Source: Pseudobacteriovorax antillogorgiicola (GTDB taxonomy: Bacteria; Bdellovibrionota_B; Oligoflexia; Oligoflexales; RGVZ01). From it: a stretch of 64,000 bases of DNA. Location of the stretch: assembly GCA_945898195.1 (NCBI GenBank), contig CAMDHM010000007.1, forward strand, positions 1 to 64,000, given 5' to 3'. Below the pieces are notes generated by a model. That model was not told where the DNA came from, did no database searches, and was given only the letters and a program-made list of their open reading frames with translations. This document shows, one piece after another, positions 27,362-34,455 of the stretch (positions are counted from its first letter, which is position 1; the number at the start of each line of letters is the position of its first letter). Both the position numbers and the translations under genes were made by a program.

Positions 27362-28894
27362 GTGAATCTTCGCCGTCAGGTATCGCAAAGCATAGGTGAG
27401 GAGACCTCCTCCGGAAAACCATTTGTCATCGCCATTCTCGCTGCCACCAGTGGTTCCACATATCACAAATCTGGCACCCGAATGATCGTCAGACAAAACG
27501 GCACATGGACCGGAATGTTAAGCGGTGGCTGCTTGGAGACAGGCATCGCGGAGGCTGCGCTCGCGGCCTTAAGCGCGCAGACGCCAACAACTCTTTACTA
27601 TGACACCACTGACGACGCGGATGTGACGTTGGGATCAGGCTTGGGCTGCAAAGGCTCACTGACGATCGCCTTGATTCCTTTTGACGGGAGTTCAACGCCA
27701 TTAAAAGACTCCGATCTTGATAGTCACATCAAGGATTCGTTGGAGTTTTTGGGCCTTCCCGGAGGCTCCATAAAACCCCTAGCTGAACGGCGGGACCTGG
27801 TTATTTTTGGCGCCGGCGTTGACGCGAAGCCGCTCTGTCAGTGGGCCAGCGATCTCGACTGGAATGTATCCATCGTGGATCCGAGGCCGGCATTCGTGTC
27901 CTATGAGAATTTTCCAGAAGCCACCCAGATATTTCAGGCACATCTGACCCGTGAGCTTGCCGACGAAATTTTTCACGACAAATCAAACCCGGCGTTCGCG
28001 ATTATCATGACCCACAATTTCAACCGGGATATTGATATTCTCAAAATGCTAATCCATTACGATCTGCCCTACATCGGACTGCTCGGACCTGGAAAAAGAG
28101 CTCACGACATCATGAAAAAATTGACCCCACGCGATCGTCACGCTCTCGCGCCCGTGTTGCGCGCTCCAATGGGACTTAGTCTTGGTGGCTATGGTCCGGA
28201 GGCCATCGCGATCGCGACTCTCGCGGAGACACAATCAGAGCGATACAAAACACACCCGGAGACAAGACGTTATGAACCAATTGATCGTAGACCGGACGTT
28301 ATTATCCTGGCCGCGGGAATGTCCTCGCGCATGGGATCACCAAAACAGCTAATAAAAATTAACAATGAAACTTTGATCAGACGGGCTGTCGTCACGGCCG
28401 GGAAATCCAGCGCTGGCAATATATTCGTGGTCGTTGGCCCGTCTTCTCAGGCAATCAGGCGTGAGCTTGATGGTCTCTCTGTGACATTCATCGATAATCC
28501 TGACTTTCACGAAGGTATCGCGTCATCGATTGTCGCCGGCATCAAGGGACTTCCCGCGGACAGCCGCACGGCGTTGATTATGACATGTGACCAGCCACTG
28601 ATTACTGAGCGGGACCTGAATGATCTCATCACTGTTTTTGAGAAGAAGCTTTGCCCCGTCGCCGCGATGACCTACGATGGCATCCTAGGCGTGCCCGCGT
28701 TGTTTGATGTTTATGTATATCCAGATCTTTTGAGCTTAAAAGGCAACGGCGGGGCGAAAACCGTCATTCAGCGTTTCTCCGACGAAGTGGCGACCTGTCC
28801 CTGCCCTCGCGCATCAACGGATTGCGACACTCCGGATGATATTTTAAAAATCCAAGCTGTAATCGAGTCAGTTACAGGAGAGAGGGCGACATGA
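27362..28894 (+). CDS. XdhC-MocA fusion: molybdenum hydroxylase maturation factor
   Basis: A 510-aa fusion with GTG start (AAGGA 6 bases upstream). The N-terminal part is XdhC/CoxI-like ([14 protein letters not shown], then LSGGCLE), followed by its Rossmann domain ([13 protein letters not shown]). The C-terminal part is a MocA-like nucleotidyltransferase: [13 protein letters not shown] (316-328), then TCDQPLI. XdhC proteins bind and protect Moco and aid sulfuration; MocA makes molybdopterin cytosine dinucleotide. The fusion thus couples MCD synthesis with insertion. Its stop overlaps the ATG of the Fe-S subunit (ATGA), so it serves the enzyme encoded downstream. Confidence 0.9.
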
Positions 28895-29391: not shown

Positions 29392-31599
29392 ATGCTTGAT
29401 CAGAATATCTCACGCAGAAACTTCCTCCAGGGAACAGCCGCGACCGCGGCCAGCCTTATCGTTGGCATCGATCTGGTGACCGATAAAGCTTTTGCCTCAG
29501 AGACTTTGGTCATGTCGTTACCGAACCCCTGGCTAAGAATCGATTCTGATTCCATTACATTTGTTCTGGACAAAACAGAGATGGGGCAGGGCATTAACAC
29601 CGCGCTTGCCATGATTGTCGCCGAGGAGCTCGATGTCGACCTGGAGCAACTGACCATTGAAAACGCCATCGCGGACCGGATTTACACCACGCACAATGAC
29701 CTAGGTGCGCAAATGACCGGTGGAAGCTCAAGTGTGCGCAACAGCTGGCAGCCTCTCAAAAAAATCGCGGCCACCGCGCGGCAGATGCTCATTCAAGCAG
29801 CAGCGAAAGAATGGAACGTCGATCCCGCGGAATGCCGCACCGCGTCTGGAATGATTTACCACGATAAAACGGCGAAAAAAGGGCCTTATGGAACCTTCGC
29901 CGGCGCCGCCCGAAAATTGCCTGTTCCCGCGCCCCAATTCAAAGATCCGGCGACGTACCGCTACGTCGCCAAAGCGACAAAGCGGGTCGACGGCCACGCG
30001 AAAGTCACCGGCCAGACAAAGTACGGAATCGATACCGTTATCCCGGGGATGCTATCAGCCACCATTGTCCGCTGCCCCGTTTTTGGCGGCAACGTCAAAT
30101 CACTTCATGATAAACAGGCCAAAGCATCACCCGGCGTAAAACACATCATAAACACGGGCACCTCCGTCGCGGTACTCGCTGATACATATTGGCAGGCGCG
30201 TCAGGCAGCGAAACTGCTAACGATTACTTGGTATGACGGCGAGCTCGCGGGTCTGTCCTCGGACAAAATTCGCCAGGAATTTATCGAGCTGGCGAAAAAA
30301 GACGGTAAAGTGACGCGTGAAGATGGTGACGTCAAAAATAAAGACAAACTCGCAGTTAAAACAATCGACGCCGTCTATGAAACCCCCTATCTGGCCCATG
30401 CCACCATGGAACCCCAAAATTGCGTCGCCAGGGTGACATCAGACTCCTGCGAGGTCTGGGCCCCAACACAAACTCCTGGTGTCTGCATGGAGGTTGTCCG
30501 TGGTATTACGGGGCTTGCCGCGAGTAAAATCAAGATTCACACGACTGCCATCGGCGGTGGATTTGGCCGCAGGCTCGTCGCAGACTACGTTGCCGAGGCC
30601 GTGACACTTGCCAAAGAGGTGAACGTCCCGGTCAGAGTCCTTTGGTCCAGAGAGGAGGACATGCGGCATGATTTTTACCGCCCCATCAGCTACAACGTCA
30701 TGTCTGGCGGAATCGACCAGACCGGAAATCCACTATTCTGGAAACACCGGGTCATCGGACCCGCGATCCTGGCGCAATTTCTCCCTCACGCCATTGGCGC
30801 CATGATACCTCCCTGGATGCCGCCATCCGTAAGCAAACTGCTGGGAAAATTCACCGGTTTCACCTTCCACGGATTAAAAGTTGACGACACATCAACGGAA
30901 GGGGCAAAAGACATTCCCTATAAAGTTCCGAACATCCTGGTGGATTACCATTACGCCGATCCCGGCGTTCCGGTCGGGTTCTGGCGATCTGTGGGTCATT
31001 CTCATCAGGCGTTTATGGTCGAGAGTTTTATTGACGAGCTGGCGAACCTCGCCGGCAAAGACCCGTATATATACCGCCGTGAACTGCTGGCAGACCAACC
31101 TCGCAACCTCGGTGTCCTTGACCGTGTGGCGAAAGAAATTAATTGGTCATCACCCGCGCCCAAGGGAATTTTTAGGGGAATCGCTCAGCACGCTTGCTTC
31201 GGGAGTTTTTGTGCCGAAGCTGTCGAGGCGAGCGTCAGCGAATCAGGCGACATCAAAGTCCATCGCGTCGTGGCGGCCATTGACTGCGGCCCGGTCGTGA
31301 ATCCAGACGGCGTGAGAGCGCAGTTGGAAAGCGCGATCATATTTGGCCTTTCTGCAGCCCTCAAAGGGGAGATTACCATCGAGAATGGCCAGGTCAAACA
31401 AAGTAACTTCCACGACTATGCCGTGCTGCGGATAAATGAGACGCCCAAAATCGAGACGCATATTATAGAAAGTACAGAGCCTGTTACAGGTGTGGGCGAG
31501 CCCGGTCTGCCGCCAGTGGCACCCGCCCTCGCGAACGCCCTATTCGCTGCGACCGGAAAACGCTTAAGGAAACTTCCGCTCAGCCTAAATAACCTATGA
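29392..31599 (+). CDS. Molybdopterin-binding subunit, isoquinoline 1-oxidoreductase/aldehyde dehydrogenase type
   Basis: A 735-aa large subunit of the xanthine oxidase family. A Tat signal (SRRNFLQG, cleavage near AFA-S) sends the folded complex to the periplasm. Family marks include EMGQGINTALAMIVAEEL, GGFGRR, the Moco-binding segments TGGSSSVRNSW and FWRSVGHSHQ, and the active-site Glu region GVGEPGLPP. There is no FAD subunit gene, so the acceptor is probably a cytochrome c or quinone-linked carrier encoded elsewhere. Substrate (N-heterocycle or aldehyde) unknown. AAGGAG precedes the ATG. Ends 15 bases from the convergent fusion gene. Confidence 0.92.
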   Translation: MLDQNISRRNFLQGTAATAASLIVGIDLVTDKAFASETLVMSLPNPWLRIDSDSITFVLDKTEMGQGINTALAMIVAEELDVDLEQLTIENAIADRIYTTHNDLGAQMTGGSSSVRNSWQPLKKIAATARQMLIQAAAKEWNVDPAECRTASGMIYHDKTAKKGPYGTFAGAARKLPVPAPQFKDPATYRYVAKATKRVDGHAKVTGQTKYGIDTVIPGMLSATIVRCPVFGGNVKSLHDKQAKASPGVKHIINTGTSVAVLADTYWQARQAAKLLTITWYDGELAGLSSDKIRQEFIELAKKDGKVTREDGDVKNKDKLAVKTIDAVYETPYLAHATMEPQNCVARVTSDSCEVWAPTQTPGVCMEVVRGITGLAASKIKIHTTAIGGGFGRRLVADYVAEAVTLAKEVNVPVRVLWSREEDMRHDFYRPISYNVMSGGIDQTGNPLFWKHRVIGPAILAQFLPHAIGAMIPPWMPPSVSKLLGKFTGFTFHGLKVDDTSTEGAKDIPYKVPNILVDYHYADPGVPVGFWRSVGHSHQAFMVESFIDELANLAGKDPYIYRRELLADQPRNLGVLDRVAKEINWSSPAPKGIFRGIAQHACFGSFCAEAVEASVSESGDIKVHRVVAAIDCGPVVNPDGVRAQLESAIIFGLSAALKGEITIENGQVKQSNFHDYAVLRINETPKIETHIIESTEPVTGVGEPGLPPVAPALANALFAATGKRLRKLPLSLNNL

Positions 31600-31614: not shown

Positions 31615-32919
31615 TTACATGAATCGGATCGCTCCCAAGTCCTGGCTAGAGACATATCCGCTGTAGGCCCGATTCATCGCTTCGCTGATGGACTGAACAA
31701 GAGCCAAACATTTTTGGAGCTGAGCCTCGTTACTCAGACTGTGCACCAGAACATGCTGGACGCTCGCCCAATGACCGTCTTCGCCACCATCTGTACCGAC
31801 GTGGGACCTGATGAATTTCGTTGCCGAGCGTGGATGGGCAATCCCCCAACCTTCCACACATGTCTCCAGTGCATCGATGAACGTGGGGTCCATAAACGCA
31901 GACAATCCTTCTGCCACCAGCGGAACCGTCAGAAACAGGACGGGGTCTCGTTCGAATGAAACAAGGCTCTGCTGCAGCGTCATGAATTGAAGGATGTCTG
32001 CCGCCGGCGCCATGTGATTTATTACCCAGTCAACATCCCAGCCAATGGCGGTAAGATCCCGTTCAAGAAGCCTCTCGTGATCAATCTCGCCTTTCAGATG
32101 CTCGATGAAGTGGCCGCGCAGGACCGGATCACTGGTAGCTGAAATCACTTGGGCCAGAAGCCTCGTCGTCCAGCGGACATACTGGTGCAAGTTGGCAATG
32201 GCTTCGCCATATTGATTGCGAGTCAGCGTCCCGTCGGCCACACGCTTGAACCAGAGGTTGTCATAGGCAGACTTGATGCCGCGTTTTGCCGCAGCAATAA
32301 TTTCATCTGCCATCAGTTCTCGACAGACAAAATTCCGCAATGTTCTTGTCATCGAGAGGAAGCAACGTTGAGCTAAATAATCAAGGGGACCATAGGTTGC
32401 GATGACGTCGTAGAATTCCCCGTCGGCGCCCTGAACTTTTCTTTTGGGGCAGCCAGGAATTTCTTTGCACCCAAGAATTCTCTGGGCCGCCGATTCACCC
32501 TGCTCGACATACCCAACTCCGTGACGCCTGCCATGCATGCGCCCCCATCGCATTGCAACGTAAAGCAATAAACTGACAATGCCTCGGTTTCTTGCGTGGG
32601 ACGCTACGACGGAACGTGATGAGAGGATCGCATCCCGCAAAAACTCAGGCGGAATTCCCGAATATTCAGAGAAATCGGATTCATCAGCCAACATGACGTG
32701 AGTTGCGGCAAGCAGGACTCCCGCACCGTCGTAAATACCGATATGCGTGCCAAATTCATCATTGGGACCCAACAACTTCGCGTCGGGTAGAAAACCGCGC
32801 TCCTCGACAAATCCCTTGCGCCGAAGTTCAACAATTTCCGCGGGGAAGTTTCGCCCGCTAAAGAACTTCACACCAATGTCGTTCGACCGGTAAGGCTTGT
32901 TGTCAACTTCGATATTCAT
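31615..32919 (-). CDS. GNAT-like acyltransferase fused to a haem-oxygenase-like diiron domain
   Basis: A 434-aa two-domain protein. Residues 1-190 look like a GNAT/autoinducer-synthase-type fold (ELRRKGFVEERGF near 31, SRSVVASHARNRGIVSLLLY near 101). Residues 200-420 are helical and carry possible metal ligands in the style of haem-oxygenase-like diiron oxidases: E278 and H281 (GEIDHE), E338, H373, D377 and H383 (SHVGTDGGEDGHW). Such domains hydroxylate amines, cleave C-C bonds or desaturate. The fusion suggests an enzyme that makes and then oxidises an acylated small molecule. AGGAAG precedes the ATG by 9 bases. Divergent from an orphan histidine kinase. Confidence 0.7.
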   Translation of the reverse strand: MNIEVDNKPYRSNDIGVKFFSGRNFPAEIVELRRKGFVEERGFLPDAKLLGPNDEFGTHIGIYDGAGVLLAATHVMLADESDFSEYSGIPPEFLRDAILSSRSVVASHARNRGIVSLLLYVAMRWGRMHGRRHGVGYVEQGESAAQRILGCKEIPGCPKRKVQGADGEFYDVIATYGPLDYLAQRCFLSMTRTLRNFVCRELMADEIIAAAKRGIKSAYDNLWFKRVADGTLTRNQYGEAIANLHQYVRWTTRLLAQVISATSDPVLRGHFIEHLKGEIDHERLLERDLTAIGWDVDWVINHMAPAADILQFMTLQQSLVSFERDPVLFLTVPLVAEGLSAFMDPTFIDALETCVEGWGIAHPRSATKFIRSHVGTDGGEDGHWASVQHVLVHSLSNEAQLQKCLALVQSISEAMNRAYSGYVSSQDLGAIRFM

Positions 32920-33102
32920 GACTTTTACTTCCTATTTATATTGCGTCTAACACACCACAATCAAACACCAAACCTGCCAGCTAATAGCTACAAACCACCA
33001 ATAGACTCACTGTTTTTAGTTCATTTTTAAGCACCAGCCCGCCGATGGATCAGGCAGTTTGGGAAACGGTGTTTTAATCGACACGCACCAACAGGAGCTT
33101 CG

Positions 33103-34455
33103 ATGCCAGAGACAGTGACAGAGAAAACAACAGGGGGTGAAGTTCCATTTGATGGGACGGCCGTGACTGGAGAGTCCGGCGTTCTCGATTCGCTGGCCTG
33201 GCTAAGCGACGCCGAAATCAACACTGAGGTTGAACGGATCCATAAAACACTCACTAAAAAAGTTGTCATTCCGCTTATGGCAGTCATGACCATTGCTTTT
33301 TATGCAAGTGGATTCCAAAATACGACCTACCACATCGTGATCGTGATCCTGGGCCTCGTGATCGCAGCGCTCAATGCCTGGATATCTAACAAAACTGAAG
33401 AATGGCACTTTCAATCGGGTTGGCGAACCGACAGCTGGGATGCAGGACGGTGGCTCGTGAGCGTTTTGGGTTTTGACCTTTTTCTGCTATATGGCTACAG
33501 CCCGTCCCTAACGGTAACATTTTCGTCGTGGACGATCTTGATTGTCTCTGCCCAATCGGACCTATTCAACAAAAGACTGCGCAACGTCGTCGTCTTTCTT
33601 TGCTGGGCGGCAGGTGCCGTAGCCATCTTGATCTGGTATCCCTTCGACCCGCTCGGTACACGACTTTTTGCGATCCTTGCCATGTTGCTGATCTGTGTTC
33701 TTTTTGAACGCCTGGAATCATACTGGTGCAGCGAATTGGTGCGCAGGCGAAAAATTGAACGGATTCAGAATCACGCCCAAGAGCGGCTTGTGCATGCCGA
33801 GCGGGATGCGCAGATTGGCGCCCAGGTCAGAACCGTGTCCCATGAGTTGGGAAACTTGATTAATATTTTGCAGTTGAGCAATTCACTGGACAGTGAACTC
33901 AATCGGGAGCAACTGACTCGAACGCTGTTCTACATCACGAAGATCAATCGTCTGATCCTCCGCGACATTGATAAGCGCGCACCAAGACAGGAAATCCGAA
34001 TAAAAGAATTGATGTCGGACATTGTCTTGTTGATCCGGCCTGAAGTGATCACCACGCCCTGCCGCTTTCAGATCAACGCGTCCCAGGATGTCCTAGAACA
34101 TCGGATCAACGAACGAACCGGTTCGCTGTTCTTGATCATTCACAACCTCGTAAGAAACGGACTGCACGCCATCAATGATGCAAAGCTGAAGGTCAATCAT
34201 GGAAAAATTGAAATTGGAGCAGAGCTACATGGCAAGGAAATTCGGATGACAATCGCCGACAATGGCGTCGGGATGAGCGAACAAACTCTGGAACAGTTGT
34301 TTTCTGGCCGATCCCGCTCGATCAAGCGGGGTAGGCACGGTCTGGGATTCGGGTTTGTGCTAGACGAATGTGCAAGGAACGGCTTCAACTTATCAGTATC
34401 GTCTGTGCCTAGCGAGGGAACAATCATGACCATGGTTATACCCGTTACAGCCTGA
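33103..34455 (+). CDS. Orphan membrane sensor histidine kinase
   Basis: A 450-aa kinase. An N-terminal cytoplasmic stretch of about 50 residues is followed by several membrane helices (about 53-70, 77-95, 117-131, 142-150, 162-180 and 186-202), a coiled-coil-like linker, then H-box VSHELGN with His247, N-box NLVRNGLHA, DNGVGM and GLGFGF. There is no HAMP, PAS or receiver domain and no response regulator nearby. AGGAG lies 5 bases before the ATG. The divergent 183-bp spacing places it with the GNAT/diiron fusion gene. Confidence 0.9.
   Translation: MPETVTEKTTGGEVPFDGTAVTGESGVLDSLAWLSDAEINTEVERIHKTLTKKVVIPLMAVMTIAFYASGFQNTTYHIVIVILGLVIAALNAWISNKTEEWHFQSGWRTDSWDAGRWLVSVLGFDLFLLYGYSPSLTVTFSSWTILIVSAQSDLFNKRLRNVVVFLCWAAGAVAILIWYPFDPLGTRLFAILAMLLICVLFERLESYWCSELVRRRKIERIQNHAQERLVHAERDAQIGAQVRTVSHELGNLINILQLSNSLDSELNREQLTRTLFYITKINRLILRDIDKRAPRQEIRIKELMSDIVLLIRPEVITTPCRFQINASQDVLEHRINERTGSLFLIIHNLVRNGLHAINDAKLKVNHGKIEIGAELHGKEIRMTIADNGVGMSEQTLEQLFSGRSRSIKRGRHGLGFGFVLDECARNGFNLSVSSVPSEGTIMTMVIPVTA

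Follow-up and report, generated by a model that had tools for sequence, protein, structure and literature searches.

The haem-oxygenase-like dimetal (HDO) proteins, which include UndA, CtCADD, SznF, AetD, PolF and MboA (Pfam PF14518), catalyse unusual reactions; no more than about a dozen of them have been functionally validated (PMC13108848). The valdiazen signal cluster includes an HDO, HamA (PMC5878181, PMC11705231). A different described arrangement places a synthase gene with the gene for a receptor kinase; CqsS and LqsS are receptor kinases of this type, with six transmembrane (6TM) segments, for lipophilic signals (PMC4821796). The locus described here lies in a window of 64,000 nucleotides, the whole stretch of Pseudobacteriovorax antillogorgiicola DNA that was analysed, and encodes a GNAT-type acyltransferase domain fused to an HDO domain, beside a divergent gene for a histidine kinase with a 5-6-TM sensor domain (Table 1). 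The valdiazen (Ham) cluster and the related Mgo and Pvf clusters are comparable in being signal clusters with an HDO, but they rely on an NRPS together with multiple individual enzymes, and no GNAT-HDO fusion has been described there. The CqsA/CqsS and LqsA/LqsS pairs are similar to the fusion and kinase genes in layout, whereas the chemistry of the CqsA and LqsA synthases is unrelated to that of the fusion, and the likeness of the kinases is one of layout. Both domains of the fusion belong to familiar types. The fusion itself, its ligand-loop insertion and its near-exclusive kinase link were not found described in the open-access papers searched, where no GNAT-HDO or HDO-autoinducer combination was encountered; absence there is weak evidence of novelty.

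Table 1. Positions in the window of the fusion gene, the kinase gene and their parts.
Feature	Position	Strand	Details and basis
GNAT-HDO fusion gene	31615..32919	-	434 aa, ATG start, intact ORF; homologues, model, Foldseek
N-terminal GNAT (FeeM/PF13444-like) domain	32386..32877	-	about residues 15-178; model, Foldseek, motifs, hhalign
C-terminal haem-oxygenase-like dimetal domain	31648..32346	-	about residues 192-424; profile alignments, model, Foldseek
ExxH ligand pair E278/H281	32077..32088	-	alignment of 13 members
Ligand E337	31909..31911	-	alignment of 13 members; residue 338 is glycine
H373-W384 motif HVGTDGGEDGHW	31768..31803	-	putative ligands H373, D377, H383; three-residue insertion relative to HxxxDxxH
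Divergent intergenic region, fusion/kinase	32920..33102	.	183 bp
Sensor histidine kinase gene	33103..34455	+	450 aa; H-box H247 (HELGN), HATPase_c
Kinase sensor domain, 5-6 TM	33250..33717	+	hydrophobic segments; no periplasmic domain

The original prediction had proposed an acyltransferase fused to a haem-oxygenase-like diiron domain, with an orphan kinase alongside. Both the gene and its fused architecture are genuine, because the reading frame is intact and full-length homologues at 29-38% identity occur in more than one phylum; the kinase gene was likewise found at the divergent position and distance given. On its 3' side the fusion gene faces a convergent molybdopterin oxidoreductase gene (29392-31599). 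Since the aminotransferase gene that lies 3' of the kinase gene is also convergent, the fusion and kinase genes form an isolated divergent pair. Promoters, operators, terminators and inverted repeats were sought in the region between them, and none was found above chance. A foreign origin of the fusion gene was considered and rejected, its GC and GC3 matching those of its neighbours. Elsewhere in the window (27362-28894), a fusion of XdhC/CoxI domains with a MobA-like nucleotidyltransferase is encoded upstream of 2Fe-2S and molybdopterin oxidoreductase genes.

On its own, the window protein had no match in Pfam, PHROGs or the PDB sequences, and a single sub-threshold match in NCBIfam (E 0.08). 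An AlphaFold2 model built from the window protein and three relatives (pLDDT 80, pTM 0.81) has an alpha/beta, GNAT-like N-terminal half and is all-helical from residue 179. In Foldseek searches of the PDB, the C-terminal half matched 3dde (E 9.9e-6), CtCADD (8vag, E 1.1e-5; also 1rcw) and UndA (4wwj, E 3.4e-5), with target TM values of up to 0.84. Profile comparison led to the same fold: PF14518 matched four of seven members (best E 1.6e-7), and a profile of stand-alone HDOs aligned to residues 206-422 of the window protein (hhalign probability 99.4). The predicted haem-oxygenase-like fold is thus supported by structure prediction, fold search and profile search. The C-terminal half shares with known HDOs the 3H/3C ligands and their order (ExxH ... 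E ... HxxxD), but differs from them in having three extra residues before the last histidine, in its fusion to an N-terminal GNAT domain, and in forming its own clade relative to the stand-alone HDOs compared.

Six candidate metal ligands had been named in advance. Five of these, E278, H281, H373, D377 and H383, are present as stated, whereas position 338 is a glycine and the sixth candidate is instead E337; the corrected 3H/3C set is invariant in the alignment of all 13 members. The fused family departs from the canonical HxxxDxxH spacing with an HxxxDGxxxGHW motif that is three residues longer. Two alignments treat this difference differently. In a profile alignment against 3dde, all six residues are paired with matching ones, and a three-residue gap falls between D377 and H383. 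In the hhalign alignment against stand-alone HDOs, the motif is crossed without that gap, which sets residue 380 opposite the third histidine. Because residue 380 is variable (E, D, G, V or Q) while H383 is invariant, the preferred interpretation is that a conserved loop inserts three extra residues into the usual ligand helix. The model breaks the helix that bears H373 and D377 at residues 374-382, at lower confidence (pLDDT about 65). If H383 binds metal, the longer spacing would be a variant and not a defining failure of HDO membership.

The GNAT assignment of the N-terminal half, also part of the original prediction, agrees with both the AlphaFold model and Foldseek, where it matched the GNATs 1yvo (E 1.3e-4), 1ghe (E 1.6e-4) and 3dr8 (E 1-2e-4); a separate model of this domain alone was of low quality (pLDDT 48) and was set aside. 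The acyltransferase motifs are conserved, with R33, E40, D54, R102, R110 and G113 invariant in six members of the window's phylum. Their layout, LRxxx(Y/F)xxE, D and [ST]R, is that of the FeeM / PF13444 (Acetyltransf_5) GNATs, and hhalign of the N-terminal domain against PF13444 proteins of these genomes gave a probability of 96.4 (E 1.1e-9), against 0.1 for a reversed-profile control. Unlike those proteins, the domain lacks the conserved E before SR, is fused to an HDO and lies below curated thresholds: no single member passed an acyltransferase family threshold in Pfam or NCBIfam, the best scores being E 0.062 for PF13444 (in two of seven members) and 0.0063 for TIGR03694 (in one). The domain therefore looks like PF13444 by sequence but falls short of filed membership.

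Relatives at 29-38% identity come from genomes of the same phylum and from a Gammaproteobacterial MAG (L003), and a Nannocystaceae MAG (L001) encodes a relative of the C-terminal half. When a profile was run against 58 genomes from the same phylum, it recovered six full-length fusion genes, together with one match to the C-terminal half only (G035) and one remnant (G001). The family is present in three of 36 genomes from the order of L003 and in 4/379 from the phylum of L001 (E < 1e-50); across 369 genomes from the class of L003, only that MAG's own genome was positive, apart from one distant HDO. No relatives were found in viral, plasmid and phage collections. The 13 aligned members belong to Gammaproteobacteria, Myxococcota and bacteria here called Oligoflexia-like, a label for the phylum members inferred from genome grouping. 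In a tree, members of the fused family group together in a single clade, separate from the stand-alone HDOs used as comparison (98/95); the same tree, in which several outgroup branches are long, does not resolve intact from degenerate fused members. At L050:2722-11746, a fused-family HDO shares an array resembling a natural-product cluster with YcaO, another HDO, a TfuA-like ORF and a gene of tryptophan-halogenase type. In six Gammaproteobacterial and Myxococcal members the GNAT half is degenerate and the HDO half intact; the idea that one chain does both reactions is therefore limited to the Oligoflexia-like members.

GNAT-like genes also occur near HDO genes as separate units. Each of three Gammaproteobacterial loci (L003, L038, L039) has a stand-alone gene close by that is GNAT-like by eye, and a GNAT-looking ORF, again by eye, precedes the HDO gene of L001. 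The Gammaproteobacterial stand-alone products had no Pfam family match and resembled the fused N-terminal domain weakly (probability 12), which does not support placing them in the same family. PAS-GGDEF-EAL proteins are encoded at the Gammaproteobacterial loci. Outside the fused family, two loci have an annotated FeeM gene next to another HDO gene. At one, a PilZ-PilZ-FeeM gene adjoins a stand-alone HDO gene (L040:6274-8416, minus strand), a layout that suggests FeeM-HDO pairing under c-di-GMP control. At the other (L052:7542-9998, minus strand), 4 bp separate a FeeM-methyltransferase fusion gene from an HDO gene, and a desaturase-like gene is close by. A further array (L051:7041-12831, minus strand) combines an HDO and a T_hemolysin-family protein with what appear by eye to be an AMP-ligase, an SDR, a histidine kinase and a response regulator.

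The kinase proved to be a recurrent neighbour in related genomes. Its sensor domain was found in five of the 58 phylum genomes, in each case adjoining the fusion gene (G000, G008, G011, G053) or the remnant (G001). Fisher tests gave p = 4e-4 with the remnant scored as absent and 1e-5 with it scored as present; the counts ignore relatedness, and adjacency is the stronger evidence for linkage. The orientation of the pair and the genes around it vary from one locus to another. Within one genus, the pair is flanked by different genes in G000 and G001, and the fusion (or remnant) and kinase have thus stayed together through rearrangement. In G001, a clean in-frame deletion has left an 83-codon remnant that keeps its start and stop (L020:6138-6386, minus strand), beside an intact kinase at 90% identity; this may be a receiver-only state or an assembly artefact. 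A sixth, distant copy of the sensor domain belongs to a kinase paralogue of 40% identity in the organism's own genome, which lies among housekeeping genes (L082:8577-9980, minus strand) with no GNAT-HDO gene nearby. At three loci (L014, L016, L018), NarL/LuxR regulators lie beside the fusion gene, and their closest relatives are confined to these loci. The window's own genome has no close relative of these regulators at E 1e-30, and the description of the kinase as an orphan is correct at this locus. Two loci of the phylum, L017 and L018, have different kinases, and none was seen near the partial locus L019. The association with this kinase is genuine and specific, the sensor domain being near-exclusive to fusion loci. 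At the gene level, the locus links a putative synthase with a putative receptor, as in a quorum-sensing system.

The reading favoured for this locus, to which a probability of slightly under one half (about 0.45) is assigned, is a bifunctional synthase whose oxidised, acylated, lipophilic product is a signal sensed by the 5-6-TM kinase. With acyl-ACP or acyl-CoA as donor, the FeeM/PF13444-like domain would attach a fatty acyl chain to an amine, which is probably an amino acid or a derivative of one. The same molecule would undergo O2-dependent oxidation by the 3H/3C HDO domain, through desaturation, C-C cleavage or N-oxygenation. The lipophilic oxidised N-acyl product would enter the membrane and be read by the neighbouring kinase, which would act through the adjacent NarL/LuxR response regulator at other loci and through a distant regulator at this one. 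The analysis establishes the two-domain architecture, the conserved ligand and acyltransferase motifs and the near-exclusive kinase linkage; catalysis, the substrate, the order and coupling of both reactions, the product class and the role of the product as kinase ligand are what we infer. The signal reading is favoured because both folds match, the ligand set is invariant and the N-terminal domain is FeeM/PF13444-like; because FeeM genes adjoin other HDO genes, and loci with a degenerate fused GNAT have GNAT-like genes in the vicinity of the HDO; and because the sensor domain is so closely confined to fusion loci, three of which carry the regulators. HamA in the valdiazen cluster and the 6TM receptor kinases CqsS and LqsS serve as precedents. 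Counted against it are the failure to pass any acyltransferase threshold and the missing E before SR, the loop insertion, which leaves H383 only a candidate metal ligand, and the irregular partnership with the kinase (other kinases at two loci, none at another, and a paralogue without a synthase). The original interpretation is partly supported: both predicted folds were recovered, the ligand and GNAT motifs proved conserved and the kinase is linked, while its idea of one chain performing both steps applies to the Oligoflexia-like members only. Its suggestion of a metallophore-like product was rejected, as the locus has no supporting gene.

The main rival, which has an appreciable if minority chance of being correct, is an enzyme of stress response or lipid modification that has a dedicated regulator: the fusion would modify a cell-bound lipid or make a stress protectant, and the kinase would sense membrane, redox or oxygen stress and control the fusion, with no signalling pair. 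PF13444 also includes lipid-forming N-acyltransferases, and these genomes often encode such proteins. A precedent is DtpC, an HDO-like protein that protects Acinetobacter from desiccation (PMC13232832), and the kinase adjoins the enzyme, as a regulator and its target should. However, no PAS, HAMP or periplasmic stress domain was found in the kinase sensor region, and the intact kinase beside the in-frame enzyme deletion is more readily explained as a receiver than as a regulator devoted to the enzyme. It is improbable that the halves are independent or that one is inert, with the HDO as the enzyme, the N-terminal domain as a binding or dimerisation module and the kinase sensing something unrelated. 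Such an arrangement would fit the six members that keep all HDO ligands beside a degenerate N-terminal domain, and the lack of any individual sequence scoring above a GNAT family threshold, but not the invariant GNAT motifs of the six Oligoflexia-like members, the recurrence of FeeM-HDO gene pairs outside the fused family, or the GNAT-like genes near Gammaproteobacterial members. That the kinase link reflects chance or passively inherited gene order is very improbable: only five such kinase loci are known in the 58 genomes, but their surroundings vary, and the pair has been kept together within one genus despite different neighbours.

With its distinctive ligand loop, fused acyltransferase and near-exclusive kinase partner, this HDO clade points to acylated amines as a class of substrate, and the kinase suggests itself as a ready bioassay. 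More tentatively, and with considerable doubt, the synthase and receptor could represent a new class of cell-cell signalling, in which a single-chain acyltransferase-dimetal oxidase makes an oxidised, lipophilic N-acyl signal for a dedicated 5-6-TM kinase and NarL-type regulator, and some strains are receiver-only. If the product is a signal, the fusion would provide a new route to a signal in a poorly studied bacterial group, one relative of which appears to be receiver-only.
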